A program made the position numbers and the translations under genes. From the NCBI GenBank assembly GCA_947574215.1, contig CANPIX010000012.1:1-34756 (forward strand): 34,756 nt of DNA. Reading direction: 5' to 3'. The notes under the pieces are model-generated. The model was not told the origin of the DNA. It saw only the letters and a program-made list of their open reading frames with translations, and ran no database searches. This document shows, one piece after another, positions 7,796 through 31,064 of this stretch. This DNA is from an uncultured Mycoplasmatota bacterium. Its GTDB lineage: Bacteria; Bacillota_I; Bacilli_A; RF39; UBA660. The number at the start of each line of letters is the position of its first letter. Position 1 is the first letter of the stretch.

Positions 7796-8539
7796 TTAGT
7801 TTTCCTCACTTTGAACTATAATATTCTCATCTTTTAAAACTTTTAATGGATTTTCATAAGTTAGTTCATGAAATTTTTCTTTAGAAGTCAATTTTATAAT
7901 CTCTTTTTTTACTTTTTTCATTTTTTTAAACAAAATATCATCCTCATGGTGAACATCCGTTGCCAAAAATTGGTATTGGTTGTTCTTTAACATATACATA
8001 AATAATTTTTTAGCATGTAATCCATATTTTTCTAAAACATTTGCTAAATTCCCCTGAAATAAACATCCCATTTTTAATAAATCAAAAATCAAATCATGAT
8101 TCTCTTGAAAATAAATATAGCGTTCTGGATGAGCAATTATAGGTACAAAATCTTTACTTCGCAAATAAAATAAAATTTCCATCATGTCATGAATAGGATT
8201 AGTAATAGGAAATTCAATTAACAAATAACGACTTCCATTAATTGAAGCAATTTCATTTTTTTTCAGAAGAGAACTTATTGAAAAATCAATAAATATTTCA
8301 TTTCCTAAATACAATTGAGTTTCTATATTTTCTTTTTCGATTTCATAAACCAAATTCGTCCATTTTTCATTTTTTTGATAATTATTGCTTATAAATTGAC
8401 TTCCTGTAATATAGTGTGGAGTGGCAACTACATGTGTAAAACCAATACCATTTAATTTTTTTAACAGTGTCAAACTTTCTTTTAAACTTCTTGCACCATC
8501 ATCGATTTCATTTATAACATGTGAATGTATATCAATCAT
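7796..8539 (-). CDS. cpsB: CpsB/CapC-type PHP-family protein tyrosine phosphatase
   Basis: MIDIHSHVINEIDDGARSLKESL, VATPHYITG, PIIAHPERY, TDVHHEDD. Confidence 0.92.
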   Translation of the reverse strand: MIDIHSHVINEIDDGARSLKESLTLLKKLNGIGFTHVVATPHYITGSQFISNNYQKNEKWTNLVYEIEKENIETQLYLGNEIFIDFSISSLLKKNEIASINGSRYLLIEFPITNPIHDMMEILFYLRSKDFVPIIAHPERYIYFQENHDLIFDLLKMGCLFQGNLANVLEKYGLHAKKLFMYMLKNNQYQFLATDVHHEDDILFKKMKKVKKEIIKLTSKEKFHELTYENPLKVLKDENIIVQSEEN

Positions 8540-8547
8540 ATAAGTTC

Positions 8548-9216
8548 CTATTCGTAATAATTTCCATAATAGCTTCCATGTATATCATTGGTACGATTAA
8601 CGATCACACCTGCAATGTCTGCTCCAACACTCATTAAGCTCTTTTTCGTAAACTCAAGTTCAGTAGTCTTAGTTTGCTTTAAAGAAGTCACAATAACCGT
8701 TTTATCAACGTACTTAGTTAAAATAAGAGAATCTGTTAATCCATTTACAGGGGTACCATCCAATACAATGTATTCAAACTTTTCCGCCAATGTTCTTAAA
8801 AGAACTTTAGTTTTGGGAGAATTTAACAGCTCACTTGGATTTGGTGGAACAACTCCTTTTGGTAAAAGATACAAATTTTCAATACGAGTTTTTCTAATAT
8901 AGCTATTAAAATGAACTTCTACATTTTCCAAAAGTAAATTAGACAATCCTTTATCGTTTTCAATTCCAAAAATTTTATGAAGCCTTCCTTTTCGCATATC
9001 ACAATCCATCAATAAAACTTTGCTACCATTTTGAGCAAAAGCTGTAGCCAAATTACTACTAATAAAACTTTTTCCTTCTCCCGGAACAGAAGAAGTAATT
9101 AATACGGTACGAACTCTTTTATCCACTCCAGAAAATTCTAAATTCGTTCTAATAATACGAATGGCTTCCGCCACACTTGACTTTGGATTTCGATCAACAA
9201 TAATTTCATCTTTCAT
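8548..9216 (-). CDS. cpsD: CpsD/CapB-type tyrosine-protein kinase (BY-kinase)
   Basis: Walker A SSVPGEGKSFISSNLA, Walker A' VLLMDCDMRKGR, C-terminal Tyr cluster YYGNYYE. Confidence 0.93.
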   Translation of the reverse strand: MKDEIIVDRNPKSSVAEAIRIIRTNLEFSGVDKRVRTVLITSSVPGEGKSFISSNLATAFAQNGSKVLLMDCDMRKGRLHKIFGIENDKGLSNLLLENVEVHFNSYIRKTRIENLYLLPKGVVPPNPSELLNSPKTKVLLRTLAEKFEYIVLDGTPVNGLTDSLILTKYVDKTVIVTSLKQTKTTELEFTKKSLMSVGADIAGVIVNRTNDIHGSYYGNYYE

Positions 9217-9217
9217 T

Positions 9218-9910
9218 TTATTTCATCGTCCCCTTTTTCTTTTTAGAATAATCTGGTACTGAGCCCAAAATAGTAAATTCAAATTTTCTTTCCACATCGG
9301 ATACACTTTTAATTGTGGTATCAAAATAATAAAATACAAACAAAACAAAAATGGCTAAAATTATTCCCGCACCAATATACAAAACAACTTGTTTTGTTAT
9401 ATTAAAATTAGATGGAAAGTCAGAAATTTCTGCTGAATCTAAAATGGATACATTCGATAAATTGTAAAGTTCTTTCGCCTCTTTTCCGAAAACTTCTGCC
9501 ACTTCATTAGCAATTAAATAAGCTTTTTTGGCTTCCACATCGGTAACAGAAATTTCAATAATTTCTGTATCTTTTACAGAACCCACATTAATCATTTTTG
9601 CTAACAAAGCCGTATCGTATTCCAAATTCAAATTCTCAATAACTTGATTTAAAACTCTTCTACTTTTAACAATTTGCTGATAGGTACTCACAAGCTTTGA
9701 ATTTACAGTTAAATCCGATTGCGTAATACTTGAAGTTTCATTACTACTAAATCCAGTCAAGATAATACTTGTTTTTGAAGTATATTTTGGTTGTTGTAAA
9801 AAAACAGAATAGAAACAACCAATTGTAACCACTAAGGCAACTATCGCAAAAAACTGTACGCTTTTTGATAAAAAATAGATTAATAAATCTTTAATATCAA
9901 GTTCTTCCAT
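9218..9910 (-). CDS. cpsC: CpsC/CapA-type Wzz polysaccharide co-polymerase / kinase activator
   Basis: Two TMs flanking an extracellular domain, P-rich second TM region; adjacent to cpsD. Confidence 0.88.
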   Translation of the reverse strand: MEELDIKDLLIYFLSKSVQFFAIVALVVTIGCFYSVFLQQPKYTSKTSIILTGFSSNETSSITQSDLTVNSKLVSTYQQIVKSRRVLNQVIENLNLEYDTALLAKMINVGSVKDTEIIEISVTDVEAKKAYLIANEVAEVFGKEAKELYNLSNVSILDSAEISDFPSNFNITKQVVLYIGAGIILAIFVLFVFYYFDTTIKSVSDVERKFEFTILGSVPDYSKKKKGTMK

Positions 9911-9934
9911 AAATTCCTCTTCCTATTCTATTCA

Positions 9935-9970
9935 AAATTATAGCATAGGCTTATTTTTTTGTATAGAATA
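9935..9970 (-). promoter_or_regulatory. Candidate extended -10 promoter of cpsCDB
   Basis: Minus strand ...CCTATGCTATAATTTTG: TGN-TATAAT upstream of the cpsC start. Confidence 0.5.
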
Positions 9971-10009
9971 AATTTCTACACCTAAGCAGAAAACATTAAA
10001 AAAAACATC

Positions 10010-10483
10010 TTAATTTTTAAGACATTCTTTTTCTTTCTTTTTAACAAATAAAAATGTTAAACACACACCCACCGTTGCCCCGCAAGTATCTAAGAATACA
10101 TCCAAAATACGTGCTGTTCTTTCACTTACAAAATATTGATGGAATTCATCACTGCAAGCATACAAAAAACATAGTAGGATTGTTGATAAAATTGGATGCT
10201 TCCATTGGTACACTTTTAGTGTAAAATAAAGTAAAATTCCAAGAATAAAATAAATAAAAAAATGAGCACTTTTACGTATTAAAATTCGTGTATTTTTAAT
10301 AAAATTGATTTCATCCATAGAAGTACTTTCTTTTTTGGTTAATTCTTTTTGAATTTCAAATGTTTTTTTGGCTACTTCATCACTTAAACTTTGACTTTTT
10401 TGCGCATTTTGATTAGAAAAACAAAAGATTATAAACATACAAAGAAAAACCAAAACAGGATAAATAATTTTTTTATCTTTCAT
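10010..10483 (-). CDS. VanZ-family membrane protein
   Basis: FCFSNQNAQKSQSLS..., RKSAHFFIYFILGILLY, DEFHQYFVSERTARILDVFLDTCGATVG. Confidence 0.88.
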   Translation of the reverse strand: MKDKKIIYPVLVFLCMFIIFCFSNQNAQKSQSLSDEVAKKTFEIQKELTKKESTSMDEINFIKNTRILIRKSAHFFIYFILGILLYFTLKVYQWKHPILSTILLCFLYACSDEFHQYFVSERTARILDVFLDTCGATVGVCLTFLFVKKKEKECLKN

Positions 10484-11921
10484 TTATAACCTCATTTATT
10501 TTTTGTTTGGCTTTTTCAATACTATTTTTATCAGGTTCCATAACGTACAATTTGTACTTAGTACCCATACTATGCGTATAGTCCATAGAACCACTTCCAG
10601 TAACCGCAATACTTTCTATTTTCCAAGAAGGCATTTTATCCAATTGGTATTTGATAATTGAAGTAATTTCTTCTGAAGACAAATCTGTTGTAAAACTTTT
10701 ATCCAAAGCATTTAAAATACTATTGTATTTGCTTATTAGTATATGAGATTTTGTCATTTTTTCAAATATTGCTGTAATAACTTGTTGTTGATTCGCTCCA
10801 CGATGATGATCTCCAGTTGTATAAGCAAAACGTTCTCTTGCATAAGCCAAAGCTTCTGCACCTCCAAAATGATTCCATCCCTTATTTACATACACTTTTT
10901 TATTAGTCCAAGCTTGAAAAGATTTATCCGAATAAATATCAATCCCACCAATCACATCTACTAGTTTTACAACCGTATTAAAATTTACTCTCACATAATG
11001 GGAAATATCAATTGCATACAAGTTCTCTAAAGTTTCAATACTTTTTTCAATTCCGTAAATGCCTGCGTGTGTTAATTTATCTTTTAATCCTGTAGTTCCT
11101 GCAAGTTGTACATAATAATCTCTTGGGGTATTTAGAAGTAAAATATGATGCGTAACTGGATTTACAATCACAAGTTGGTTGACGTCACTTCTACCTCTTA
11201 CACTATCAACATTTCCCCATTTATCGATTCCACTTATATACAAAATGAAAGGTTGTGTAAGAAGTTCTAGTTCCTTCTTATTTTCTTCATCTTCAATATG
11301 AGCTTTTATTTGAATCTCAAAAGAATATATAGATTTTACTTTTTCAAAAAAATCTTCAATTTCGTCTTTAGCAATCGTAATATAACTTTCCTCTAAAACA
11401 ATTGCATCTACACTTCCGTCGAAAAGAGATTCTATTAAACCACCAAATTCTTCTTTTAACATTTCATTGAATGTTATTTGTTTGTTCAATTCTTGTTTTA
11501 TTTTTTCATAGTATTCATTATCCAAAAAAAGAATATTTTTATCTTTTAAATCCATTAAGTTATTATAACGATCATTATTTAATGTTAGCACAGAATAAGA
11601 AAGAATATCGTAGTCTACTTTTGTATTAACAATAAACGAATTCATTTTAAAAAGGTAATAAGAACCCAAAACAAAAATTATAGAAAACAAACAAAGAAAA
11701 AAGACACTTAGAATTTGAACGAATTTCCGTTTTTTGTAAAGTAAATAAAATAGAAAAAAATTTACCAAAACAATTCCAATAATCCCACTCAACAAATATT
11801 TTGTAGGTATAATATTTATTTTAGATAAAAAATAAGTAAATACTAAAAAACTTCCTATCCAAAAACAGGTAAATAAAATTTTTATGAATAAAGTTAACAA
11901 TTGTAACTTATTATTTTTCAT
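10473..11921 (-). CDS. LytR-CpsA-Psr (LCP) family glycopolymer ligase, CpsA-like
   Basis: RGRSDVNQLVIVNPVTHHILLLNTPRDYYV, THAGIYGIEKSIETLENL, YARERFAYTTGDHHRGANQQQVI. Confidence 0.92.
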   Translation of the reverse strand: MKNNKLQLLTLFIKILFTCFWIGSFLVFTYFLSKINIIPTKYLLSGIIGIVLVNFFLFYLLYKKRKFVQILSVFFLCLFSIIFVLGSYYLFKMNSFIVNTKVDYDILSYSVLTLNNDRYNNLMDLKDKNILFLDNEYYEKIKQELNKQITFNEMLKEEFGGLIESLFDGSVDAIVLEESYITIAKDEIEDFFEKVKSIYSFEIQIKAHIEDEENKKELELLTQPFILYISGIDKWGNVDSVRGRSDVNQLVIVNPVTHHILLLNTPRDYYVQLAGTTGLKDKLTHAGIYGIEKSIETLENLYAIDISHYVRVNFNTVVKLVDVIGGIDIYSDKSFQAWTNKKVYVNKGWNHFGGAEALAYARERFAYTTGDHHRGANQQQVITAIFEKMTKSHILISKYNSILNALDKSFTTDLSSEEITSIIKYQLDKMPSWKIESIAVTGSGSMDYTHSMGTKYKLYVMEPDKNSIEKAKQKINEVINER

Positions 11922-13450
11922 GACAACGAACTCCTTTCTTTCCTATGATGGTTTTTCAACAAGTTTTTATAATAATTAAAATGATCGTTTTTCCAAAATA
12001 AACAGAATAGTATTAGATTAGGAATAAATAATGCTACTATAAGATTCCATAAGAATTCCATAATTATAGTAGAGAAAACAAAGATGTTGGCTATAAAATA
12101 GGTAAATCCTATGATTAATAAAAATAAGAAAAAATACGCTACTGTTTCAATAAGATAATTTCCATACTTTCGTTGGAACAATTTTGCATAAACAAATTTT
12201 GGATAACTAAAAATCCATAAAACAAGACTACTAATTAACGTTCCCATAAAAACACCTGTTAAACCAAATCTTTTTACTAAAAGAATACTAACTACAATAT
12301 TTAAAAAAGATTCAATGATAGGAACAAAACGGTCTTCATATAAAATTCCAGCAGCTTCTTTAAAAACAGAATAGGTATATCTAGAACATCTTTGAAAATG
12401 ATTTAAAGTCAAAACAACTAAAACCGAAAAAGGAAGCAAATAAATGGCTCCAATCCACAAAGTTACAAAACTATCCATTATAATAAATAGACAAACACTT
12501 GTAAAAGTAGAAATCCAAAAATTTAAAAAACGAATTCTTTTAAACACTAAAAAATGTTTCTCTTTTGTTTCGGTAACTAATAAATTTCCAATACTAGCGG
12601 TTGTTTCTTTAATAACTTGCATAAATATTTTTTGAACTGCGTCAATGATTAAATGATAATTAGAATACAATCCTACAGTAACAAGTCCTAAAAATTTTGA
12701 GATAATAATATTATCCGTACCAAAAACAATGAATCCGCCAATTTGATGAAAAAAAGATGCTTTTACTTTTTTAAATATATCCTTTTCTAATGATTTAGAG
12801 AGTGGCTCTACTTTTTTTTCTTTTAAATAAGGATAGAGTTTATTTGCGAGAAACGTAATAGCTAGATTTTCTAAAACTCGCATTGTTATTTTTATTTCCA
12901 AATACAAATAATAATTTTTTGTTAAGAATAAAAATAAAAGCTGTATACCATTTAAAAGAATAGTATAAAAAATATGAACAATCTGAATAAGATAATTTTT
13001 TTGCTGTGCGTATAAAATACTTCTTTTGTAAGACAACAAATAGGAACAAATTGTATCCAATAAAAATAATAAATAAACTATATAGATATTTACATTTATA
13101 TTAATTTCCCCAACAATTGATGGCAGAAAAAACAAAATTCCTATTCCTATAAAAAAAACGATTCCCGCAATACAACGATAACTTTTTTTATAAAAACGCA
13201 TCAAAGATTTTATAGTCTTAATATCTTCTTGAGCAATAGGCTTATAAAGATTATAAATTATTGCACTTCCTATTCCCATTTCAACAATAGACATCATAGA
13301 CAAAATATTTGTAAATAACCCATTTAATCCTAAATATTCACTTCCAAGTATTTTTAAAAAAACGGCTTGTGCAACGAATCCAATCAAAACAGAAATAATG
13401 TTAGATCCTAAAGAGGCCATTCCATTTTTCATAGAGTTTTTGGTACGCAT
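11918..13450 (-). CDS. Polysaccharide flippase (Wzx-like, MOP superfamily)
   Basis: ~12 TM protein; N-term LGSNIISVLIGFVAQAVFLKILGSEYLGLNGLFTNILSM. Confidence 0.88.
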   Translation of the reverse strand: MRTKNSMKNGMASLGSNIISVLIGFVAQAVFLKILGSEYLGLNGLFTNILSMMSIVEMGIGSAIIYNLYKPIAQEDIKTIKSLMRFYKKSYRCIAGIVFFIGIGILFFLPSIVGEININVNIYIVYLLFLLDTICSYLLSYKRSILYAQQKNYLIQIVHIFYTILLNGIQLLFLFLTKNYYLYLEIKITMRVLENLAITFLANKLYPYLKEKKVEPLSKSLEKDIFKKVKASFFHQIGGFIVFGTDNIIISKFLGLVTVGLYSNYHLIIDAVQKIFMQVIKETTASIGNLLVTETKEKHFLVFKRIRFLNFWISTFTSVCLFIIMDSFVTLWIGAIYLLPFSVLVVLTLNHFQRCSRYTYSVFKEAAGILYEDRFVPIIESFLNIVVSILLVKRFGLTGVFMGTLISSLVLWIFSYPKFVYAKLFQRKYGNYLIETVAYFFLFLLIIGFTYFIANIFVFSTIIMEFLWNLIVALFIPNLILFCLFWKNDHFNYYKNLLKNHHRKERSSLS

Positions 13451-13452
13451 AA

Positions 13453-14640
13453 CTACGTTTCCTTTCCATCAAAAATTATTTTCCAAAGTTGACCTACATT
13501 TTCAATGGAAAATTTTTTCACTTGTTTTTTAACTATTTCCGACATCTCTTTTCTTATGTCCTCATTTTCTGCTAAAAAATGCATCGCATCCGCCAACTGA
13601 GTGACATTGTTTTTCTCAACTAAAATTCCACAACGCTTATTTTCAAATATTTCAGTAATAGATGGCAAATCAAAACTTATCACTGGCAACCCAAAAGACA
13701 TCGCTTCTGTAACAACCATTCCCCATCCTTCCCACAAAGAAGTCATTACATATAAAGAAGAATTCAAATAATATTTAGAAACATCATTCGTTTTTTCTGT
13801 TAAAAAAATTCGATTTTGTAAATGATAATTTGCTATTAATTTTTGATAATTTTCTTTTTCCTCTCCTTCTCCCACAATGTATAAATTCCATGTATCATTT
13901 GTTTTTGAAAAAATTGAAAAAGCTTCTATTAACTTGTCAAAGCCTTTTACAAAAGTATATCTTCCAACGGCTAGAAAATTTGGCTTTGTTAAATCACTTA
14001 CAAGAGTAGAACAAAAACTGTTAGGATTTGGAATAACCTGAGGGGTAAAATGAAATTCTTTTTTCATTTGGAGTTGGTCATCTTTTGTTTGAACCACATA
14101 GAAATCAATATGAGAGAAAAGATAGGAGATAAAAGAATTTTGATAGTAAAGACGATGAGCTTTTGTTTGAAAATAAGAAGCAAAAGTACTGTGTTGCCAA
14201 GCAATCACTTTTATATTTTTTAAATTAGGTTTTAGTACAGCTAGTATACTAAAATATTCACTTGCAACGCCAATTATAAAATCATAAGAATTTTTTGTGA
14301 TGGTCTGTACTAATATTTTTTTGTCTAAAAAATTACAATGCATACTTTTTAAAAATCTTACATTGTGCTTTAAAAATCCATATTTTGAATTCCATTTACA
14401 TATTATTTTATATATTTTTCTCGTAATTCGATTCCAAAAACAATTGTAAGAATCCAAAAATTGAATCTTTATTTTTTTATTCAACTGATAGAGCGAATAA
14501 TCTATTTTTTTATGCCGATCAGTAAGCAAAAAAGAAACTTCATAATTTTGTTGCACCAAATAATTGGCAAGTGTTGTAACAACTCTTTGCTCTCCTCCTA
14601 AAGTAAAAGGAGAATTCATAAAAAAACAAACCTTTTTCAT
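13453..14640 (-). CDS. Glycosyltransferase family 4
   Basis: GGEQRVVTTLANYL; AVGRYTFVKGFDKLIEAF; SLWEGWGMVVTEAMSFGLPVISFD. Confidence 0.92.
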   Translation of the reverse strand: MKKVCFFMNSPFTLGGEQRVVTTLANYLVQQNYEVSFLLTDRHKKIDYSLYQLNKKIKIQFLDSYNCFWNRITRKIYKIICKWNSKYGFLKHNVRFLKSMHCNFLDKKILVQTITKNSYDFIIGVASEYFSILAVLKPNLKNIKVIAWQHSTFASYFQTKAHRLYYQNSFISYLFSHIDFYVVQTKDDQLQMKKEFHFTPQVIPNPNSFCSTLVSDLTKPNFLAVGRYTFVKGFDKLIEAFSIFSKTNDTWNLYIVGEGEEKENYQKLIANYHLQNRIFLTEKTNDVSKYYLNSSLYVMTSLWEGWGMVVTEAMSFGLPVISFDLPSITEIFENKRCGILVEKNNVTQLADAMHFLAENEDIRKEMSEIVKKQVKKFSIENVGQLWKIIFDGKET

Positions 14641-14641
14641 T

Positions 14642-15544
14642 CTACCACTTCCTATTTATTTTTAATAATCCTCCCAGATACACTAGTGCTTCTTTTGTAT
14701 TGTAATTTACAAATCCCCCTGCTGGAGTAAAGGTAAGTTCCCCAAAATAGATTTTTCCCTTTATATTATATAAATCAACTCGTACAAAAGCAAATTCTTT
14801 GGATAGGTCCTCTGCAATATGGATCATTTCTTTTAAATTTTCTGGTTTTGGAATTATTAAATTCGAACGATACTTCGATAAGCTATAATCTAAATAATTC
14901 CAATTAGTATCGTAATAATCCAATTTTAAAGATTTTTCTCTATCCGAGCAAACCAAAATACAATGTACTTCTCCATCAAAACAATAAAATTTATAATCGA
15001 TTGGCATTGCATTTTTTGAATCTTCTAAATATTCTTCTGCAAAAATTTTGGGTTTAATAAAGGAATAATGGTATTCCAAATTATTTTTAGCAAAATTTTG
15101 TTTCAAAGCTTGCGTAAGGGCTTTTTTACACAAAGAAATATCATTTTCCTGATTCTCCAAAAAAAGAAATACATTTCCACATCCATTGTTCGGTTTTAAA
15201 ACAAACCTTTTTGGTAATGTATGAAAATCAATTTCATCAAAATGACCATAAACTCCATAAATTTTTGGCAATATCTTTTCATACCCTTTTTTTATAATGA
15301 ATTCTCGAACCGCAATTTTATCCGCTAAAATTCCATATTTTTTTTCTTTACGATATTGAAACACAATCAACCAATGAATTTTTTCATTAAAATCTATTGG
15401 ATTATTCAAATTCAAACTTTTTTTCATTCTATGTTTGTAAATAAGTTTATGAGCCAACGTTGGTGGAAGAAACCAAAAAAGTTCTTTAATTATTTTTTTG
15501 CACCATTTCTTCATAAAATGATTCTCCTTCCAATTTTTTTTCAT
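14642..15544 (-). CDS. TupA-like ATP-grasp protein
   Basis: DFNEKIHWL, RFVLKPNNGCGNVFL, DYKFYCFDGEV, FVRVDLYNIKGKIYFGELTFTPAGG; overlaps 3' end of upstream GT2 gene. Confidence 0.8.
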   Translation of the reverse strand: MKKNWKENHFMKKWCKKIIKELFWFLPPTLAHKLIYKHRMKKSLNLNNPIDFNEKIHWLIVFQYRKEKKYGILADKIAVREFIIKKGYEKILPKIYGVYGHFDEIDFHTLPKRFVLKPNNGCGNVFLFLENQENDISLCKKALTQALKQNFAKNNLEYHYSFIKPKIFAEEYLEDSKNAMPIDYKFYCFDGEVHCILVCSDREKSLKLDYYDTNWNYLDYSLSKYRSNLIIPKPENLKEMIHIAEDLSKEFAFVRVDLYNIKGKIYFGELTFTPAGGFVNYNTKEALVYLGGLLKINRKW

Positions 15545-16493
15545 ATTCTTTGGTTTTTTTTTCTAAACGTTTACACGAACTAGGTTTTAAAAAATAAATA
15601 CATTGTTTTAAAAAAGGAACTTTTCGAAACACTTTTTTATAAAAATACTTTAAATAAATTTTTCCTGAAATTTTATTGTATTGTTTTAATAAATTTACAC
15701 TATAATGAAAATGTTTTCTATCCTCTAAGCTACTATAAAACAATTGAAGATAATTGTTGTAATAAATTTCCTTTTCATTATACTTTTCTATTTCTTCATG
15801 AAATTTTGTAAAAAACATATTTTTTGTCTCCAACATTTTTTCAAAATTAGGAACATTGTTTTTATCGTCTGTGCATTTAACAACCAAAAATTCATTTAAC
15901 GGAATAGCTTTACCAAAAGAAAAAAAACGTAACATATATTCTATATCTTGATGGCGAACAAAATTCTCATCAAAAAGCCCATTTTTTAAGATGGCTTCTT
16001 TTCGAAAAAAAAGATTACTTCCTGTTCCAAATATATTTCTCTGATTTAAAAGTTCTTGCTTCACATCTTTGTGTGAAGTAGCTTGAATTTTTTTTATAAA
16101 TTTATTATTTTGTCTATACAAAACCGCAGTATAAGCACAATCGTACTCTCGATTTTTTTCTAATAGATCAACCAATTTTTGAAGACGATTGGGTAAAAAA
16201 TAATCGTCATCATCTAAAAAAGTAATGTAATCCCCAGTTGCTTGTTTTATCCCTGTGTTTCTTGCCACTGCTCCATTCTGATTTTTTTTATGTGTTAAAT
16301 ATACTATGGATTTATTAAGAATATAATTTTTTAATTTCTTTTCATTTTCCCTTCGATAAGTGGAATTTTCATCATTATCGTCTACAATAATAATTTCTAT
16401 ATTTTTATAATTTTGAGCCAAGACGCTATGAATAGCTCGCACTAAACTATCCGCTCTTTTATACGTTGGGATGATTACCGTAACTTTTTTCAT
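15486..16493 (-). CDS. Glycosyltransferase family 2
   Basis: VTVIIPTYKRADSLVRAIHSVLAQNYKNIEIIIVDDNDEN ... FLDDDDYFLPNRL. Confidence 0.92.
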   Translation of the reverse strand: MKKVTVIIPTYKRADSLVRAIHSVLAQNYKNIEIIIVDDNDENSTYRRENEKKLKNYILNKSIVYLTHKKNQNGAVARNTGIKQATGDYITFLDDDDYFLPNRLQKLVDLLEKNREYDCAYTAVLYRQNNKFIKKIQATSHKDVKQELLNQRNIFGTGSNLFFRKEAILKNGLFDENFVRHQDIEYMLRFFSFGKAIPLNEFLVVKCTDDKNNVPNFEKMLETKNMFFTKFHEEIEKYNEKEIYYNNYLQLFYSSLEDRKHFHYSVNLLKQYNKISGKIYLKYFYKKVFRKVPFLKQCIYFLKPSSCKRLEKKTKEYEKKLEGESFYEEMVQKNN

Positions 16494-16501
16494 GATTTCA
16501 C

Positions 16502-17671
16502 CTATTTGTTTTTTATTAAATATTTACTATTATAGCACAAAACGAACAAATACATAAAGTATTCATAAGAATACGCTTCTGTTAACATCATAACAAGAAA
16601 AACAAACATCGTAACAGATAGAATTTTAGAAACATCATGTTTTTTATATTTATACAATTCTTTAAAAGATGTAAATGCTATAAGAATTATACTAATACTT
16701 CCAATAATTCCCGTTTTATATAGAATCTCTAAAAATTGATTGTGAGCATGATAAGATTGTAAAAAATGCGTTTTACTTAGCCTATACAAGCGATCTTCAA
16801 TTCCATATCCCAAGAAAGGCTGTTCTTGTATAAAACCGATAACATAATCCCAAATATAGACTCTTCCTGTTAAAGTTACATCTCGATGAAAAACATTTAC
16901 AATAAGAGAAGAAAATAAATTTTGAATTTTAAACACAACAATGGAAAAAAATAAAAAAATAGAAGTAAAAACATACGTTTTTATATTGAAAAAAGAACAT
17001 TTTTTTAACAATGGTTTTACTAAAGAAAAAATACTAATTAGTAAAATTCCCACTAAAGAAGTGCTACTATCTACTAACAATAAAGAAAAACAGGAAATAA
17101 AAAGCAAAATATAATTTCTTAATGTCAATTTTCCTTTTTTATAAAAAGAATGTACATAACTTACAGCAATAGCAGGCAAAATAAATAATATATGTATGTT
17201 TTTATATCCTAAAAGCCAATTGTCTCTATACCCACTAGCATCCAAATACATTCCATTTGGATACATTAAAATACTAACAAAATTAAGAAGTATCAATGAG
17301 TAAAGTAAAAATTCTAAGGCTTCCAATAAAGAATCTATATGCGTTTTCATTCCTAAGTCTATTATTAGAGATAAAGTTAAAACTTGAACAATCGTAGAAA
17401 TACAACTTGAAATATCTCCATTATTAATTAAAGTAGAAAATAATAAAATGATTAAATAAAGCACAATAAAATAAATAATTTTAGACACTTTATTTTTTTT
17501 TAAGCTTAATCCTACAACAAAAAGAAAAGCAACATAAGGAAAATAATTATAAATTAAATTGATTGTTGGAAAAAACACTCCTAATGATCTAGGTTTAAAA
17601 AAAGAAAATAAAAGTATAAAATACAATAAAATCCATTTCCAATTTTTTTTCTTACTAACATCTGTCCCCAT
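16502..17671 (-). CDS. O-antigen polymerase/ligase-like protein (Wzy)
   Basis: Polytopic; RVYIWDYVIGFIQEQPFLGYGIED ... HAHNQFLEILYKTGIIG (Wzy_C signature). Confidence 0.85.
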   Translation of the reverse strand: MGTDVSKKKNWKWILLYFILLFSFFKPRSLGVFFPTINLIYNYFPYVAFLFVVGLSLKKNKVSKIIYFIVLYLIILLFSTLINNGDISSCISTIVQVLTLSLIIDLGMKTHIDSLLEALEFLLYSLILLNFVSILMYPNGMYLDASGYRDNWLLGYKNIHILFILPAIAVSYVHSFYKKGKLTLRNYILLFISCFSLLLVDSSTSLVGILLISIFSLVKPLLKKCSFFNIKTYVFTSIFLFFSIVVFKIQNLFSSLIVNVFHRDVTLTGRVYIWDYVIGFIQEQPFLGYGIEDRLYRLSKTHFLQSYHAHNQFLEILYKTGIIGSISIILIAFTSFKELYKYKKHDVSKILSVTMFVFLVMMLTEAYSYEYFMYLFVLCYNSKYLIKNK

Positions 17672-17688
17672 TTTTATTCCTCACTTTT

Positions 17689-18489
17689 CTAAGAATTGTA
17701 ACTAAAACTTCCCGTAAATAAATTTTTTAAAGCTTTAAAAAACGACATATTTTTTTTGTACTCTTGGTGTTTTCGTATTGCAAAATCAAAATTAAATAAA
17801 AAATATAAATATTTATGCATTCTTTTAAAAGAAGCTCCTTTTGCCAATAAAAATGCATCATTCATTCCTTGGTACCATGTAGAAGGTCTTTTATTTTCAA
17901 TTTGGCATAAAACATAAGCATCACTTGCGATGTTCAAACCTCTTTTTAAACAATCCGATACAAAAATATTTTCTTCTCCTAAAATATATTTTCCAGATCC
18001 TGTTCCAAAATCTTCATCAAATCGAAAAGACTGTATTGAGCGGAAACGAAAAGTCAAAGATACTGAAGAAGCTCGAAAAAGATTTATTTGATTTAGTTTT
18101 TTGCCTATTTTTTTATTGAGTTTTCCATTTGGTTTTCGAATATTAAAAACAATTCCGTCTGAATTATTTTTCAAATAAGCTTCGGAGACTTTTTTAGGAT
18201 AATCTTCAAAAAAATGAATATCGTCATCAGTAAAAATTATTATATCTGTGTTTGGATCCACAAACTGAAGCGCTTTGTTTCTACTTTTGCTAATCCCTCT
18301 TTCTGGACTTGAAATAATTTTTACAACATGTTCATCTATTTTTATTTCTTCATAAGACTCCAAACTACATTTACATTGATTTATAAAAATAGCATCTGTT
18401 TTTAAATTCATTTCTTTGTATAATTTTCTTATGTTTTTATTATACATTGTTGCTACTAACACTTCAATTTTCATATTTACCCCATCCAA
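17689..18489 (-). CDS. Glycosyltransferase family 2-like
   Basis: PERGISKSRNKALQF, IIIFTDDDIHF; possible start at internal MKIEVLVATMY. Confidence 0.8.
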   Translation of the reverse strand: MDGVNMKIEVLVATMYNKNIRKLYKEMNLKTDAIFINQCKCSLESYEEIKIDEHVVKIISSPERGISKSRNKALQFVDPNTDIIIFTDDDIHFFEDYPKKVSEAYLKNNSDGIVFNIRKPNGKLNKKIGKKLNQINLFRASSVSLTFRFRSIQSFRFDEDFGTGSGKYILGEENIFVSDCLKRGLNIASDAYVLCQIENKRPSTWYQGMNDAFLLAKGASFKRMHKYLYFLFNFDFAIRKHQEYKKNMSFFKALKNLFTGSFSYNS

Positions 18490-18490
18490 A

Positions 18491-19291
18491 TCATCCTCTA
18501 TAATTTTCTTTGTTTTTACGTTTGTAAATTCTCTTTTTTATGGCATGATAAGCGTAACCAACAAAACAGTAGCAAGATTTAATAAATGAAAGATTTTCTA
18601 TATTACGGTACAAATACCAGGTTCCTTTCATTGCTTTCCATTTATTACTTGATAAAGAATTAGGTACAACGCGATAATAAGACAAAACTTTAGGAATTCC
18701 ATAACAAGAAAAACCATTTTTCAATAGTTTGCACCATAAAGCCGCATCTTGTCTCCTTCTAAGATTTTCCATAGCCAAAATTTCTATTCCAACCATTTCT
18801 TTATTAATCATAACACCTACTGTTTGTATAATTGTGTTTCTTAAATAATAATTGTAAGTTATTTTTTTCGGCATTCTTATAACTTTATTTAAAGAATTTC
18901 CATTTTTATCTATTTTTTCATAATCTGTACAAGTAAAAGCGTAATTATTATCTTTCATAAATTGAACTTGGTATTCTAATTTTTCAAATGCCCAAATATC
19001 ATCTGCATCCAAATAAGCGATAAACTTTCCCTTTGCTTTTGCTAAAGCATAATTTCGAGCAATTCCTGCACCACTATTTTTCTTTAATTGATAACATTTT
19101 ATTCTCTTGTCTCGATTAGCAAATGATTGGGCGATAAAAAAAGATTTATCGGAAGAACAATCATCCACAATAATCATCTCAAAATTACTATAACTTTGTT
19201 TTAAAACGCATTCTATTGTCTCAGTTATCCATTTTTCACTATTATACATTGGAGTAATAATAGAAATAAGTTCGTCTTGACCCATATTCAT
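18491..19291 (-). CDS. Glycosyltransferase family 2
   Basis: LISIITPMYNSEKWITETIECVLKQSYSNFEMIIVDDCSSD ... AYLDADDIW. Confidence 0.92.
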   Translation of the reverse strand: MNMGQDELISIITPMYNSEKWITETIECVLKQSYSNFEMIIVDDCSSDKSFFIAQSFANRDKRIKCYQLKKNSGAGIARNYALAKAKGKFIAYLDADDIWAFEKLEYQVQFMKDNNYAFTCTDYEKIDKNGNSLNKVIRMPKKITYNYYLRNTIIQTVGVMINKEMVGIEILAMENLRRRQDAALWCKLLKNGFSCYGIPKVLSYYRVVPNSLSSNKWKAMKGTWYLYRNIENLSFIKSCYCFVGYAYHAIKKRIYKRKNKENYRG

Positions 19292-19372
19292 TCAATCCTT
19301 TGTATCTTTTCTTTTTTACTACATATATTATAGCAGAATTTTTATTTTTTTCCCATAAAAAATGAGCAATAT

Positions 19373-20065
19373 CTATTCTGCTCCATCCTTTTTAAAAACT
19401 TGAACAATTGTTTTCCCAATAATATCCAAATCCTTTTTTAAATTAAAATGAATACTATAATCTTTTTCAAGCATTAATCTTTTTTGAAAGGTTGTGTTAC
19501 TTCTTCCACTCACTTGCCAAATTCCTGTTAATCCAGGTTTTGTGGAAGTGATGATTTTAAAATACTCTCCCATATCTTCTTTTTCATAAGGTAAATAAGG
19601 GCGATTGCCTACCAAACTCATATTTCCCAATAAAACATTTATAAACTGAGGAACTTCATCTAAAGAAGTTTTTCGTAAAAAACGCCCCACTTTTGTAATT
19701 CTAGGATCATTTTTTACTTTTTTATTAATGTAATATTCATTACGAAAGGAAGGATTTGTACGCATTAATTCAATCAAAACTTCATCCGCATTCGGAACCA
19801 TAGTTCTAAACTTATACATAAAGAACAACTTACCATTCTTTCCTATTCTTTGTTGTTTATAAAAAATACTATGATAGTCTCTATTGTAAATAGAGACTGC
19901 TTTTATTATAAAAGCAATAGGAACCATCAAAAGAATACCAAATAACCCAAATAGAATATCAAATCCACGCTTTAATTTGACATAAATAATTTTATTGGTC
20001 ACGGTATCTACTTTTAAAGACTCACTCAACATCACACTATTCGTATTCATAACTTTCTCCTTCAA
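19373..20065 (-). CDS. Undecaprenyl-phosphate sugar-1-phosphate transferase (initiating glycosyltransferase)
   Basis: KRGFDILFGLFGIL, YKFRTM, LRKTSLDEVPQFINVLLGNMSLVGNRP, KPGLTGIWQVSGRS. Confidence 0.95.
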   Translation of the reverse strand: MKEKVMNTNSVMLSESLKVDTVTNKIIYVKLKRGFDILFGLFGILLMVPIAFIIKAVSIYNRDYHSIFYKQQRIGKNGKLFFMYKFRTMVPNADEVLIELMRTNPSFRNEYYINKKVKNDPRITKVGRFLRKTSLDEVPQFINVLLGNMSLVGNRPYLPYEKEDMGEYFKIITSTKPGLTGIWQVSGRSNTTFQKRLMLEKDYSIHFNLKKDLDIIGKTIVQVFKKDGAE

Positions 20066-21052: not shown

Positions 21053-21553
21053 ATGATAAATAAACAAGGGTTATGGTTCGTAACCTTATTCAGTTTAATA
21101 TTAGTATTAGGAATTTACTACGTTACGGTTAAAGACGACAAAAACATACTGGCAACAGCAGTAAGTGGATCAGAAAATAAGGAAGCCGAAGTTGTACAAA
21201 GCAATGAAAGCAGTATTTTGGTATCCCTTCGTGTAAAAGACGAAGAAGAAATGCTTCAAGAAATGGAAAGTTTACAAACAATACTTTTAGACAGCGAAGC
21301 AAGTTTACAAGAAAAAAATGACGCTTACAATTCATTACAAACTCTAAATGCAAACAAAGGACATGAAGAAAGTTTAGAAAAAAAAATAAAAGAGAAATTT
21401 AATTTAGAAAGTTTCATAAAAATTAAAAATGACCAAATAAGTATCACAATTGCTAGTAAAGAACATAATAATACATTAGCAAATAATATAATAAGAACTA
21501 TACAGGAAGAATTTGATACAAAAATGTATATTGTCGTAAAATTTCAAGGATAA
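21053..21553 (+). CDS. spoIIIAH: Stage III sporulation protein AH-like
   Basis: Short N-term, TM (LWFVTLFSLILVLGIYYVTV), acidic coiled segment, C-terminal ring-forming-like domain; GGAGG RBS; next to gerE. Confidence 0.75.
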   Translation: MINKQGLWFVTLFSLILVLGIYYVTVKDDKNILATAVSGSENKEAEVVQSNESSILVSLRVKDEEEMLQEMESLQTILLDSEASLQEKNDAYNSLQTLNANKGHEESLEKKIKEKFNLESFIKIKNDQISITIASKEHNNTLANNIIRTIQEEFDTKMYIVVKFQG

Positions 21554-21579
21554 ACCCTAATTTCTAGGCATATTCTCTC

Positions 21580-21606
21580 ACTTAAATTTTTATACTTCAT
21601 AAAATA
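21580..21606 (+). promoter_or_regulatory. Candidate sigma-K promoter of gerE
   Basis: AC (21580-21581)-N16-CATAAAATA (21598-21606), matching sigma-K consensus AC-N16/17-CATAnnnTA. Confidence 0.6.
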
Positions 21607-21642
21607 CAATAGATTTAAGTATAAAAGAAAGTGAGGAGGCTC

Positions 21643-21849
21643 ATGAAAAAAAGCATTTTAACGTCAAGAGAACAAGAAGTTTTCGAATTGCTCGTTTTAA
21701 ATAAATCAACTAAAGAAATAGCAGAATTTTTGGGAATAAGTGAAAAAACCGTACGAAACCATATTTCCAACGCTATGCAAAAACTAGGAGTAAAAGGACG
21801 CGCACAAGCGGTAGTTGAATTAATAAAACTTGGAGAAATTACAATTTAA
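21643..21849 (+). CDS. gerE: LuxR-type transcriptional regulator GerE
   Basis: MKKSILTSREQEVFELLVLNKSTKEIAEFLGISEKTVRNHISNAMQKLGVKGRAQAVVELIKLGEITI, near-identical core to B. subtilis GerE; start corrected from GTG 21631, which overlaps the GAGGAGG RBS. Confidence 0.93.
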   Translation: MKKSILTSREQEVFELLVLNKSTKEIAEFLGISEKTVRNHISNAMQKLGVKGRAQAVVELIKLGEITI

Positions 21850-21859
21850 AAAGAAAAAT

Positions 21860-21890
21860 CATGCTCATCTTTAAAGATGAGATTTTTTTA
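21860..21890 (+). terminator. Intrinsic terminator after gerE
   Basis: CTCATCTTTAAAGATGAG then ATTTTTTT. Confidence 0.85.
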
Positions 21891-21943
21891 TTTTTTTGGT
21901 ATAAAACTCTATTAAAAAAATAAAATATATTAGGTGATTTATC

Positions 21944-22894
21944 ATGTTAAAAAAAGGGATTATTAAACGAATAACGATTTCTTCTTTAGCTCTTCTTATC
22001 TTACTTATTACCTATTTTTTTCCTACCAAAAATGAAACAGAATTTCCACAAACTTTAAGTTATAGTGATGTAAAAACAAGTGCAATCTATGTTCTGGATA
22101 AAAACCAATTTGTCAGTCGAATCAATATGAAAATAAATAATAGCGAAACAATAGAACAAGCGAAAGAAATCCTTAGCCTTTTAACAATTAAAAGTAAAGA
22201 AAGTGAATATTTACCTACTGATTTCTATGGTCTTTTACCGGTCGGAACAAATATCCTAGACATTTCTTTTGATAAAGGATTGTTAAAAGTAGATTTTTCA
22301 AAAGAATTGTTAAATACTACGAAAGAATTAGAACGAAAAATGATTGAAGCCATTGTATACTCATTATTGGAATTAAACGAAATTGAAAACATTTTAATTT
22401 TTGTTGAAGGAAATCAACTTCAAGAACTACCCTATAGTAAAGAAAAACTTCCACCTATATTGAATAAAGATTTTGGAATTAACAAAGTATACGATATTGA
22501 TAGCATCAAAAATACCACCAAAACAACAATATATTATGGTAGTAAACTAAATAATTATTTTTATTATGTCCCTGTTACTTATGTAGAAAACAATCCTCAA
22601 GAAAAAATAGAAGTTATTATAGAAAAGTTAAAAACATCTCCTTTGTATGAATCACAATTAATGAGCTACTTGCATGCAAATGCAGAAATGACAAATTACG
22701 AAATATTAGAGCAAGAAATTAAACTAAGTTTTAACAATTATCTCCTTGATGATTTAACAAATGGAAATATTTTAGAAGAAGTAAAATATACGATATTTTT
22801 GTCTATTAGAGACACATATGGCATAAGTAAAGTGGAATTTAAAGTAGAAAATGATAGTCAAAACGTAAATTTTGTTATAAATTCACTTGAATAA
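21944..22894 (+). CDS. gerM: GerM-like sporulation/germination protein, two GerMN domains
   Basis: N-terminal TM/signal; two repeats of GerMN type (LLPVGTNILDISFDKGLLKVDFSKEL; EKIEVIIEKLKTSP...). Confidence 0.8.
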   Translation: MLKKGIIKRITISSLALLILLITYFFPTKNETEFPQTLSYSDVKTSAIYVLDKNQFVSRINMKINNSETIEQAKEILSLLTIKSKESEYLPTDFYGLLPVGTNILDISFDKGLLKVDFSKELLNTTKELERKMIEAIVYSLLELNEIENILIFVEGNQLQELPYSKEKLPPILNKDFGINKVYDIDSIKNTTKTTIYYGSKLNNYFYYVPVTYVENNPQEKIEVIIEKLKTSPLYESQLMSYLHANAEMTNYEILEQEIKLSFNNYLLDDLTNGNILEEVKYTIFLSIRDTYGISKVEFKVENDSQNVNFVINSLE

Positions 22895-26366: not shown

Positions 26367-27185
26367 CTATTTTTGACAAAAAGGACAATAATACGTACTT
26401 CGCCCATTTATTTTTTCATTCTCTATTTTAGTTCCACAAACTTTGCATTCTTCTCTTTCTCTTTTGTGTACCATTAATTCTTGTTGAAATCTTCCTGTAA
26501 CCCCTAAACTAGAAGTGTAACTTTTAATTGTCGTACCGCCTAATTTTATTGCTTTTTCAATTACAAGAAAAGAACACCGAACTATTTTTTCTGCTTCTTC
26601 TTTGGTAATTTCACTCCCCTTTTTCGTTGGATTCAACTTTGCTGCAAATAAAACTTCATTAGCGTAAATATTTCCTAAACCGCTAATAATGGTTTGATCA
26701 AGTAAAAGAGTTTTTATTGCAATAGTTTTGTTTTTGAATTTGTCTAAAAGATATTGAGCGTTTAATTCTTTTTCTCCTGGTTCATACCCTTGTTTTTTAA
26801 TAGATGGATTATTCACTAAATCTTCTTTTTTAATGAGTTCCATTCGTCCAAATTTTCTTGTATCGTGATAACGAAGATCAGTTTCATCTAAAAATGAAAA
26901 AACGACGTGTTCGTGTTTGACAATCTCTTCACTACTCTTTTTTAAAAAAAATTTTCCTTCCATACGTAAATGAGATAACAAATAATGATTTTCTAGTTCA
27001 AAAATTAACCATTTTCCTCTTCTTTTAATATCAATAAATTGATTCCCTTTTAGTACTTTTTTAAATTCTTCCCGATTCGAAACAATTATTTTTTCATACA
27101 ATATTTTAACTTCTTTAATTCTTTTATAAAGAATTTGTTTTTTTAAAGTATTTCGTACGGTTTCCACCTCTGCTATTTCTGGCAT
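26367..27185 (-). CDS. mutM: Formamidopyrimidine-DNA glycosylase (Fpg/MutM)
   Basis: MPEIAEVETVRNTL, GLGNIYANEVLFAAKLNP, zinc finger CKVCGTKI...YYCPFCQK. Confidence 0.95.
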   Translation of the reverse strand: MPEIAEVETVRNTLKKQILYKRIKEVKILYEKIIVSNREEFKKVLKGNQFIDIKRRGKWLIFELENHYLLSHLRMEGKFFLKKSSEEIVKHEHVVFSFLDETDLRYHDTRKFGRMELIKKEDLVNNPSIKKQGYEPGEKELNAQYLLDKFKNKTIAIKTLLLDQTIISGLGNIYANEVLFAAKLNPTKKGSEITKEEAEKIVRCSFLVIEKAIKLGGTTIKSYTSSLGVTGRFQQELMVHKREREECKVCGTKIENEKINGRSTYYCPFCQK

Positions 27186-27198
27186 AAATTCTCCTTTT

Positions 27199-28464
27199 CT
27201 ATTTCTTATTTAAATATTCTTCTAAAGTTAAATTATTATCCATAATTTCATGAGCAATTTTTTTAGAATGGACATAACGAATATGCCATGGTTCATAATT
27301 ATATTTGGTAATTTCTTCTTTTCCTTTCGGATAACGTAAAATAAAACCAAAATCAGAGCAATATTTTTCTAAAAAGTAATAAAATTCTGTAAGTCTTTCG
27401 TCAAATCCAGACAACCATTCTTCATTCATTTTTAAACAAACATCAATTGAAAGACCTAACTCATGTTCACTAAATCTTGGCTGAGCAACATACTTACTCG
27501 CATACTCTATCCCTTCTTTTTCTAGAATAGCATTATAAATTGTTTCTTGCATTTCTTTTGCCCTATAAGCACTTTCTATCTCAGCATCATACCCATTTTC
27601 CTTTAAAAATTTTTGGAAATTCACCCAAGCTTCACAAGTTTTTCTCTCTAAATTACTGTCAAAAGTACAATTTGGATACTTTGAATGATACTCAATTATT
27701 TTAAAATTTTTAGAATATTTTATGGGATTCTCTCGATTAACTAAAGTTAAATACTTACGAGTAGATGAAATAAGCCAATCAAATAGGAAATTCTCTTTTT
27801 CTATTTCTGGATGAAATTGAACTCCTAAAAGTAAACATCCATTTTCTCTATATTCAATTGCTTCTAAAACTTCATCCATAGCTTTAGCACTTATTATTGT
27901 ATCCTTAGAAACTCTCGAAATACCCATACTATGCAAACTCACAACATTCATTTCTTCTTTTTTAAATATTTCATAAAGAAGGCTATTTTTCTCTATTTTT
28001 ATTTTGTGTCTCGCAGACAGTATGGAATTGTTTTCTTTGGTCACAATATGAAAATGGCAGTTTTCATCTTCTAATTTTTTCAAATAAGGTTTATTTTCTT
28101 TATATAAATTATACGTTTCTTTTAATGATTTTGCTTTGTTATTTCCTTGATCTTCTAATAAATTTAAAAATGTTGCCAAGACTTGAACCCCTAAACAAAT
28201 TCCTAAAAACGGTTTTTGATTTTTTATAGCATCCAAAAGAATGGGATAATAATCAAATAAAATTTGGTTCCCACCAGGCCAAACATATCCATCACAAATT
28301 CCAGTATATAAAGAAGGATCTTCCAAAATGCCAATAGGAATTCCACCACTTTCTTTAATTTTTTCACTATACATTCTAACAAAATTTGTGCGATCTTGGT
28401 AAGGATCTACTTCATGACTACTTATTGTTGGAACAATACCAATAATAGGTTTTTTATAAAACAT
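27199..28464 (-). CDS. Fusion: peptidase C26/class I glutamine amidotransferase-like domain + VanY-type D-Ala-D-Ala carboxypeptidase domain
   Basis: N-term KPIIGIVPT, FLGICLGVQVLA, GVQFHPE; C-term SAYRAKEMQ, RFSEHELGLSIDV, EPWHIRYV. Start likely MFYKKPIIG with AAGGAG RBS. Confidence 0.85.
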   Translation of the reverse strand: MFYKKPIIGIVPTISSHEVDPYQDRTNFVRMYSEKIKESGGIPIGILEDPSLYTGICDGYVWPGGNQILFDYYPILLDAIKNQKPFLGICLGVQVLATFLNLLEDQGNNKAKSLKETYNLYKENKPYLKKLEDENCHFHIVTKENNSILSARHKIKIEKNSLLYEIFKKEEMNVVSLHSMGISRVSKDTIISAKAMDEVLEAIEYRENGCLLLGVQFHPEIEKENFLFDWLISSTRKYLTLVNRENPIKYSKNFKIIEYHSKYPNCTFDSNLERKTCEAWVNFQKFLKENGYDAEIESAYRAKEMQETIYNAILEKEGIEYASKYVAQPRFSEHELGLSIDVCLKMNEEWLSGFDERLTEFYYFLEKYCSDFGFILRYPKGKEEITKYNYEPWHIRYVHSKKIAHEIMDNNLTLEEYLNKK

Positions 28465-28478: not shown

Positions 28479-31064
28479 CTATTTTGTCTCGTACCAATCA
28501 CGGCCATAATCACTACTTACTTTTAATGGAACGGATAATTCTATGGCTTTCGTCATTTTTTCTGTAACAATTTTGGTAACTAAATCTTTTTCCTTTTCTA
28601 CTAAGTCAATAATAAGCTCATCATGAACTTGGATAACCAATTTACTTTTTATAGAAAGACGTTTAAATTCTTCATCAATGGCAATCATAGCTTTTTTAAT
28701 AATATCCGCACTCGTTCCTTGAATTGGCGTATTAAGAGCGATTCTTTCTCCCGCTTGCCTTACCATATAATTAGCAGAATTTAACTCATCAATCACTCGT
28801 TTACGATGGAAAAGCGTTCGTACACTGCCATCCTTATAAGCAGACACGACAATATTATCCATATATTTTTTTACGCCAGGATAAAGTTCATAATATTTTT
28901 CAATAAATTGTTTGGCATCTCGCTGGCTAATTTCTAAATTTTCTCCTAATCCAAAACCACTAATTCCATAAACGATACCAAAAATAACCGCTTTAGCAGT
29001 GGAACGCATTTCTTTTGTTACTGCAATTTCAGGTACCCCATGAATATCTGCAGCCACTTTAGTATGTATATCTCCATCTTTATTAAAGGTATCTATAAGT
29101 TCTTGACACTCAGAAACATGAGCAAGAATTCTCAGTTCAATTTGAGAATAATCCGCACTTAAAAAACAATCATTACTTGGTAAAAAAGCTTTTCTTATCT
29201 TTCTTCCCCCTTCATCACGAATGGGAATATTTTGAATATTAGGCTCCACCGAAGAGAGTCTTCCTGTTCTCGTTAGCGTTTGTTTAAATATGGTATGGAC
29301 TTTGCCATCCTCATGAATAAAATTTTCTAAACCTTCCACATACGTAGAATAGATTTTTGTTATATTACGATATTCCAATATTTTAGCAATAACTGGATGA
29401 CTTCCAAGCAATTTGTGCATCACTTTCGCATCGGTTTTGTACCCTTTTTGAGTTTTTACTCCCCCTGGAAGCCCCAATTTCAAAAACAAAATTTCTCCCA
29501 ATTGTTTTGTACTTGCAATGTTAAACTCTTCACCAACCAAGTTGTAAATGTCATTAGAAACTCGATCTATTTTAATTTTTAATTCTTCTTTCATATCGTC
29601 AAGTATCGCTTTATCAACCACTACACCAGCAATTTCCATATCCGCTAAAACGGAGATAAGAGGCATTTCAATGGTTTTGAAAAGTTCTTCCATTTCTTCA
29701 CGTTTTAATTGGTTCATAAAACGTTCATACGTTTCATAGATGAACTTACTTTTTAGTAATATGTCTTTTTTCACTTTATCCATTTCATACTTCTTTTTTG
29801 CAATCGTTTCTTCGTACAAATCGACATCATAACCGTCTGGTTTCATTAAATACGCAATATCATCTTTAATAGTATAATTTAAAAGATAAGAACAAATCAT
29901 TAAATCGTATGCCACTTTCGGTGCCTGTACGCCTATTTTTTGTAAAGCTACAATATTTTTCTTTTGGTCAAAAGTATACAAAATCTTTTCATAGAGTAAA
30001 GGAATTACTTTTGGAATCATTTCTGGTTTCACATAATAACAATTTTCTTTATCTTGAATAGACATTCCTAAAATTGTACCTAAATGGTAATTGGAATGAT
30101 CCACTTCAACATAAAAAGATAAAGGATCTTTAAAATCTAAATCTTGAGTCTCTTCAATTTCTATAAAATTTTCTAGTTTTTCCGTTTTTTCTTCTTTATT
30201 CATTTTCTTTAAAAAAGAATAAAATTCTAATTCTTCATACAGAGAATACAAAACACCATTTTGCTCTTCTTCTTTTTTATAAAGTAAATCTTCTAAATCT
30301 TTTATATCAATAGGAACGTCTTTATAAATGGTTGCAATTTCTTTGCTGATGAAAGCCATTTCTTTATCCATCTCTAATTTTTCTTTGGTTTTTCCTTTAA
30401 TTTCATCAAGATGCTCGTATAGATTTTCAACCGTTTGATAAGTAGAAAGTAAATGGAGAGCTGTTTTTTCACCTATTCCTTTAACCCCTGGAATATTATC
30501 AGAAGAATCTCCTGCTAAAGCTTTTAAATCAATTACATGAATTGGTTCAATATGATATTCCGCAAAAAAAGAAATTGGATTGTAACGAATAAATCCTTTT
30601 TGCTTTAAAAGCTTCATATCAACTTGTTCATTCATCAATTGTAATAAATCTTTATCACTTGAAATGATAGTAGCATTAAAACGATCGTCTTCCAAAACCA
30701 TTTTGGAAAGCGTTCCAATAATGTCATCTGCCTCATATGGCGCTAGTTCAAAATAACGTATCCCCATTCCTTCTAGTATTTTTCTAGCATAAGGCATTTG
30801 TCTAATCAAATCTTCGGGAGTTTCTTTTCTTCCATCTTTATAAAAAGCGTATTTTTCTGCTCGAAAATTCTTGCCAATATCAAAGGCAACTGCAATGTAT
30901 TCTGGATTTTCTTCTTCTATAATTTTATGCATCATTGATGCAAAACCATACAGACCATTTGTTGGAAATCCTTTACTATTTCGCATGATAGTGCCTGTAT
31001 AGGCTGTTGCATAATAACTACGAAACAATAAGTTGTTTCCATCGACTAAAATTAACTTCTTCAT
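28479..31064 (-). CDS. polA: DNA polymerase I
   Basis: 5' nuclease domain (KLILVDGNNLLFRSYYA, GDSSDNIPGVKGIGEKTA); polymerase motifs (SADYSQIELRILAH, RSTAKAVIFGIVYG, VIQVHDELI). Confidence 0.97.
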   Translation of the reverse strand: MKKLILVDGNNLLFRSYYATAYTGTIMRNSKGFPTNGLYGFASMMHKIIEEENPEYIAVAFDIGKNFRAEKYAFYKDGRKETPEDLIRQMPYARKILEGMGIRYFELAPYEADDIIGTLSKMVLEDDRFNATIISSDKDLLQLMNEQVDMKLLKQKGFIRYNPISFFAEYHIEPIHVIDLKALAGDSSDNIPGVKGIGEKTALHLLSTYQTVENLYEHLDEIKGKTKEKLEMDKEMAFISKEIATIYKDVPIDIKDLEDLLYKKEEEQNGVLYSLYEELEFYSFLKKMNKEEKTEKLENFIEIEETQDLDFKDPLSFYVEVDHSNYHLGTILGMSIQDKENCYYVKPEMIPKVIPLLYEKILYTFDQKKNIVALQKIGVQAPKVAYDLMICSYLLNYTIKDDIAYLMKPDGYDVDLYEETIAKKKYEMDKVKKDILLKSKFIYETYERFMNQLKREEMEELFKTIEMPLISVLADMEIAGVVVDKAILDDMKEELKIKIDRVSNDIYNLVGEEFNIASTKQLGEILFLKLGLPGGVKTQKGYKTDAKVMHKLLGSHPVIAKILEYRNITKIYSTYVEGLENFIHEDGKVHTIFKQTLTRTGRLSSVEPNIQNIPIRDEGGRKIRKAFLPSNDCFLSADYSQIELRILAHVSECQELIDTFNKDGDIHTKVAADIHGVPEIAVTKEMRSTAKAVIFGIVYGISGFGLGENLEISQRDAKQFIEKYYELYPGVKKYMDNIVVSAYKDGSVRTLFHRKRVIDELNSANYMVRQAGERIALNTPIQGTSADIIKKAMIAIDEEFKRLSIKSKLVIQVHDELIIDLVEKEKDLVTKIVTEKMTKAIELSVPLKVSSDYGRDWYETK

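Follow-up and report, generated by a model that had tools for sequence, protein, structure and literature searches.

An uncultured Mycoplasmatota bacterium encodes a single protein in which a Peptidase_C26/class-I GATase domain is fused to a VanXY-like zinc peptidase domain of the M15B family. The gene lies on the minus strand at positions 27199..28464 of the window (the whole 34,756-nucleotide stretch that was analyzed) and specifies 421 amino acids, with an ATG at 28464 and a stop at 27199-27201. The N-terminal C26 domain spans residues 1-236 (27757..28464, minus strand), as seen from Pfam, sequence and fold matches; the C-terminal M15B domain spans residues 237-421 (27199..27756, minus strand), as seen from Pfam PF02557, the NCBIfam vanXY model and fold matches. 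Both families are known, and it is their combination that is newly described. We tentatively regard the protein as a soluble hydrolase with two catalytic heads that acts in the cytosol on wall-type peptides, a reading that we place somewhat below an even chance and in which the substrate is putative.

The fusion gene is flanked directly upstream by polA, the DNA polymerase I gene identified by ORF and sequence (28479..31064, minus strand), whose stop lies 15 nt before the fusion-gene ATG, and directly downstream, 13 nt off, by mutM/fpg, encoding formamidopyrimidine-DNA glycosylase (26367..27185, minus strand). An AAGGAG ribosome-binding site stands immediately 5′ of the ATG; an alternative upstream TTG at 28497 falls within polA and is a weaker start. 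The preliminary description had reported one open reading frame uniting C26 and VanY-family domains without assigning a strand; the frame of 421 codons is confirmed on the minus strand, and the motifs named there (the C26 nucleophile elbow, GVQFHPE, SEHELGLSIDV and EPWHIRYV) are all present. The fusion is unbroken in eight genome bins at 49–98% identity, which rules out an assembly or frameshift artefact and chance alike. The genome is reduced, at 1.1 Mb in a bin that is ~92% complete, and MraY, MurG, FtsW and a PBP are encoded in the same window as the fusion, so the host builds a cell wall. The window also holds a surface polysaccharide locus (7796-20065) with CpsB/CapC, Wzz, VanZ-like, LytR-CpsA-Psr, glycosyltransferase, TupA-like ATP-grasp, Wzy and sugar transferase genes, as well as SpoIIIAH-like and Germane-domain genes (21053-22894), which in a genome of this size hint at a remnant or reduced form of sporulation.

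Within the N-terminal half, Pfam Peptidase_C26 (PF07722) matches residues 75-220 with 94 bits (cut-off 20.5; E 1.4e-26), and a Pfam GATase match (E 8e-14) is likewise above its curated cut-off. This half aligns by sequence with Lin1909, SpuA and PuuD; its catalytic triad is Cys90, His218 and Glu220, and these residues, together with His178, which is also kept, are invariant in six aligned fusions. The PuuD equivalog model NF008471 is not reached (32.8 bits, cut-off 266), and we rejected PuuD or another known amidotransferase equivalog on such profile cut-offs. The sequence SLHSMG had been pointed out as a departure from the C26 norm, but this was overstated, the same place being occupied by SLHHQ in Lin1909, SIHGQG in SpuA and SLHGQG in PuuD. 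A clearer deviation follows the nucleophile, where CLG replaces CRG and the elbow thus lacks Arg.

The C-terminal half is matched by Pfam VanY (PF02557) at residues 271-398, with 101.1 bits against a cut-off of 25 (E 5.3e-29). Its best NCBIfam match is vanXY (NF000380), which is near full length (176 of 179 positions) and scores 119.7 bits, about half of the 250 bits set as the equivalog cut-off; the LdcB/DacB model NF041194 reaches 87.5 bits, below its cut-off of 275. The VanXY pattern of Zn ligands and catalytic Glu (SxHxxxxxxD, ExxH) is present as S332, H334, D341, E391 and H394, all of which, with R301 and Q306, are invariant in the six aligned fusions. By motif correspondence, these seven residues match the catalytic and D-Ala-binding set of LdcB, which includes the Gln and Ser used for D-Ala (PMC4087270). 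Sequence matches in the PDB are to YodJ/LdcB, VanXYc and VanXYg, with YodJ the best single one, and the region of the β4-α5 selectivity loop is ~3 residues shorter than in VanXYc, longer than in pneumococcal LdcB and similar to that of YodJ. This half is nearest to cytoplasmic VanXY rather than to exported VanY.

A first structure model was weak in the C26 half (pLDDT ~45). A second AlphaFold model, built from a deeper alignment, has a mean pLDDT of 78.6 and is usable except at residues 1-67, which are modelled with low confidence, and 135-141. Foldseek searches with this second model matched VanXYc/VanYB (E ~1e-14), Lin1909 (6e-11), PuuD (7e-10) and SpuA (~4e-9).

VanXY enzymes are a soluble class working on cytoplasmic precursors. 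The fusion has no hydrophobic N-terminus, its best 19-residue Kyte-Doolittle mean being 0.67 as against 2.3 in another VanY of the same genome, which bears out the earlier remark that no signal sequence is visible; the absence had also been thought unusual for a VanY, but with a C-terminal half closest to VanXY it is what would be expected. In the VanXY tree a clade of 50 rows is set apart from TM-anchored VanYs with support 99, and the longer, exported-type VanYs of the window genome itself fall outside it. An exported VanY with an overlooked signal was rejected from the hydropathy, the start region and this separate clade. Several genera of the same family have a VanXY-like domain N-terminal to the tRNA pseudouridine synthase TruB in proteins of ~460–500 amino acids (L042:6010-7395, also L043, L051, L070, L071 and L076; Pfam-confirmed for L042 and L051), and since these domains belong to the VanXY clade and TruB acts on tRNA, the clade is assigned to the cytosol. 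The rule is not absolute, as one member (G063; L126:5350-6039) carries a lipoprotein-like N-terminus. Another VanXY-like domain (G158; L124:5753-6961) has a C-terminal extension that is weakly HAD-hydrolase-like (E 2e-4).

As far as sampled, the fusion is limited to the genus of the window and one or two sister genera: full-length relatives occur in congeners at 50–98% identity and in at least one sister genus (G143) at 49%, and G197 has a partial or broken copy. In class and phylum samples of ~390 genomes, which are not exhaustive, only the window genome has a full-length match. Within the genus its distribution is patchy: roughly one in two of the congeners sampled lacks it, and it is broken in G018 (L008; C26 half interrupted by an in-frame stop) and G021 (L014; a frame break), where the interruptions reflect either pseudogenes or assembly errors. 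Both halves of the fusion are under purifying selection, with dN/dS mostly 0.1–0.3 in the less saturated pairs, several distant pairs being near saturation. With these low ratios and the invariant catalytic residues, the suggestion that one active site is clearly dead finds no support.

In four genomes of other genera (G032, G138, G273 and G163) C26 and VanXY are separate neighboring genes, with C26 always first and directly before VanXY. All fused VanXY domains, the broken copies and a lone copy in G033 form one clade (98), and the VanXYs of these adjacent pairs fall in two other clades, indicating that the pair arose about three times. The chance of such adjacency is roughly estimated at 0.1% per gene, a figure that serves only as a guide because the loci were picked by similarity to the fusion. 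Stand-alone VanXYs adjoin UvrD/PcrA-like helicases and other housekeeping genes, as named by eye from their sequences. We take the recurrent pairing as the best evidence for a joint function on one class of substrate, and it bears directly on the strongest alternative, that two unrelated enzymes were joined by packing: a separate cytosolic D,D/L,D-peptidase (VanXY) and an ordinary hydrolase of gamma-glutamyl amines or glutamine (C26) would both have been taken into the compact polA-mutM interval, after which a stop codon was lost. The TruB fusions of the same VanXY clade in other genera fit this account and make fusion alone weak evidence of a common pathway. The polA-mutM interval, which in this family is commonly found without the fusion, moreover holds unrelated inserts as well; one half has been lost in G002, G019 and G033, leaving C26 alone or VanXY alone at the interval; and the single clade of fused VanXYs means that fusion may date to one event that was then inherited. 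Against it stand the recurrence of C26-first adjacency with other VanXY branches and the persistence of the fused state under purifying selection in several species, and we consider packing less likely than not, if the most serious of the alternatives.

A two-headed hydrolase of wall-type peptides, the reading we prefer, would work as follows. One catalytic Zn is predicted in the VanXY-like half, bound by His334, Asp341 and His394; Glu391 would be the general base, and this half would take the C-terminal D-Ala off D-Ala-D-Ala or short stem peptides. Through Cys90-His218-Glu220, the C26 half would form a gamma-glutamyl thioester and then hydrolyze a gamma-glutamyl amide bond, most simply that joining gamma-D-Glu to the third residue in the same stem peptides. 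Together the two could take apart stem peptides, whether scavenged or derived from precursors, and so free D-Ala, Glu, and DAP or Lys for reuse. We infer the activity, the substrate and the action of both halves on the same molecule; a D-Ala-trimming soluble enzyme with a gamma-glutamyl hydrolase fits stem-peptide chemistry. The narrower claim that one cytosolic polypeptide cuts stem peptides both at the terminal D-Ala and at the gamma-D-glutamyl bond, replacing LdcA- and MpaA-type steps, we hold to be rather doubtful.

The preliminary description had likewise proposed a one-polypeptide muropeptide enzyme. Two apparently intact active sites, no export signal, a wall-making host and the recurrent pairing agree with that much of the proposal, but its recycling aspect gains no positive support: neither S66 LdcA nor an OppA or POT peptide importer was found in the window genome (bin ~92% complete), OppA was found nowhere in the genus, and MurT was found neither in the window genome nor in congeners with an intact fusion. 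Absences from a bin of ~92% completeness are not proof, yet they weaken an import-and-recycle model and leave room for a different importer or for turnover of precursors. The occurrence of S66 or MurT appears complementary to that of the fusion, which is suggestive, the genomes being few and their kinship ignored. Related reduced Bacilli, RF39 and others, are predicted to have DAP-type walls, to miss precursor steps and to need muropeptide scavenging (PMC10868615), a prediction that applies to the genomes surveyed there and may extend to the window genome. Several observations count against the wall-peptide reading. Neither neighbor, polA or mutM, belongs to wall synthesis, and the genes beside stand-alone VanXYs are housekeeping genes as well. 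D-Ala-D-Ala that the cell itself needs would be open to attack by a D,D-dipeptidase made constitutively. The TruB fusions, the patchy distribution, the CLG elbow without Arg and the poorly modelled residues 1-67 weigh in the same direction.

The polA-mutM interval of six congeners (G014, G018, G013, G010, G019 and G021) contains a divergent C15 gene, pyroglutamyl-peptidase-like (L007:2775-3284, L008:1986-2534, L016:2211-2723, L173:4920-5399, L174:5073-5555 and L175:4153-4473); these are all of the sampled congeners that have one. Its place in this interval counts in favor of the wall-peptide reading. The presence of C15, C26 and VanXY at one locus, and the small size of the genome, would also suit a broader salvage in which peptides with caps or other unusual features, whether pyroglutamyl, gamma-glutamyl or D-Ala-ended, supply an auxotroph with amino acids, wall peptides being just one source. 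The C15-like proteins, however, align with the C15 profile over no more than its C-terminal third, with a Cys and a His kept at the expected motifs, and such a route too lacks a detected OppA or POT importer; we judge it improbable.

Poorer still are the prospects of precursor editing for glycopeptide tolerance, the classic VanXY role, in which removing D-Ala-D-Ala and pentapeptide, with C26 as an aid in the clearing, would leave altered precursors in the majority. The kinship of the C-terminal half with VanXY speaks for it, as does a VanG-type glycopeptide-resistance operon in the same genus (G014; L176:222-5827, with the Ddl-VanXY-Alr portion also in L177 and L178), which contains a response regulator, a kinase, VanW, a VanG ligase (509.9 bits, cut-off 495), a VanXY_G-like protein and VanT-G (496.3 bits, cut-off 460). 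That operon, however, has its own VanXY_G and the fusion is located elsewhere; the fusion scores far under the vanXY cut-off and is not linked to a D-Ala-D-Ser ligase or serine racemase; and in the window genome a single D-Ala ligase-type match was seen, while none of the VanY matches lies in a Van cluster. Also rejected were a phage or plasmid origin, since nothing in the phage and plasmid collections spans 80% of the query; a role in anti-phage defence, for which PADLOC gave no match; and partnership with MurT/GatD, MurT not having been found in the genomes named above. In a different genus (G119; L091:5754-8574), a C26 gene is convergent with a GatD-MurT pair.

The literature searched held nothing relevant on C26 combined with VanY or with peptidoglycan recycling, a search for VanXY as a cytoplasmic carboxypeptidase was without result, and one for VanY with TruB gave unrelated text matches only. 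The fusion points to a cytosolic VanXY-like lineage, apart from resistance operons, that occurs widely across an uncultured gut family and has more than once come to stand beside, or be fused to, another enzyme; screens of gut metagenomes for resistance genes may mislabel its members. If the wall-peptide hydrolase acts on stem peptides as we propose, it would offer ungrown bacteria a simple means of salvaging D-Ala and Glu or of turning over precursors. It would then be a C26 peptidase with peptidoglycan peptides as its substrates, in wall-bearing gut Bacilli of reduced genome, and would give a non-resistance context to a domain usually taken as a vancomycin-resistance marker.

Four known systems resemble parts of the protein. 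Lin1909 (3fij), SpuA (7d4r) and PuuD (6vtv) share with the C26 half the class-I GATase fold, the Cys-His-Glu triad and the SLH motif, but have CRG after the nucleophile, and the C26 half is in addition fused to M15B. VanXYc (4mur/4oak) and VanXYg (4f78) have the M15B fold, the zinc and catalytic residues and the lack of an export signal in common with the fusion, which differs in carrying C26, in its low vanXY score and in sitting outside any van operon. The L,D-carboxypeptidases LdcB, DacB and YodJ (4ox5, 4d0y and 4ox3) have the same catalytic set as the M15B half, but LdcB enzymes act outside the cell, whereas the fusion has neither signal nor anchor. Muropeptide recycling of the E. coli type (LdcA of S66 and MpaA of M14) has the same chemistry as that proposed here, cytosolic D-Ala trimming with gamma-D-Glu cleavage; the fusion would perform it with enzymes of different families, in a genome where neither LdcA nor an Opp importer was found.
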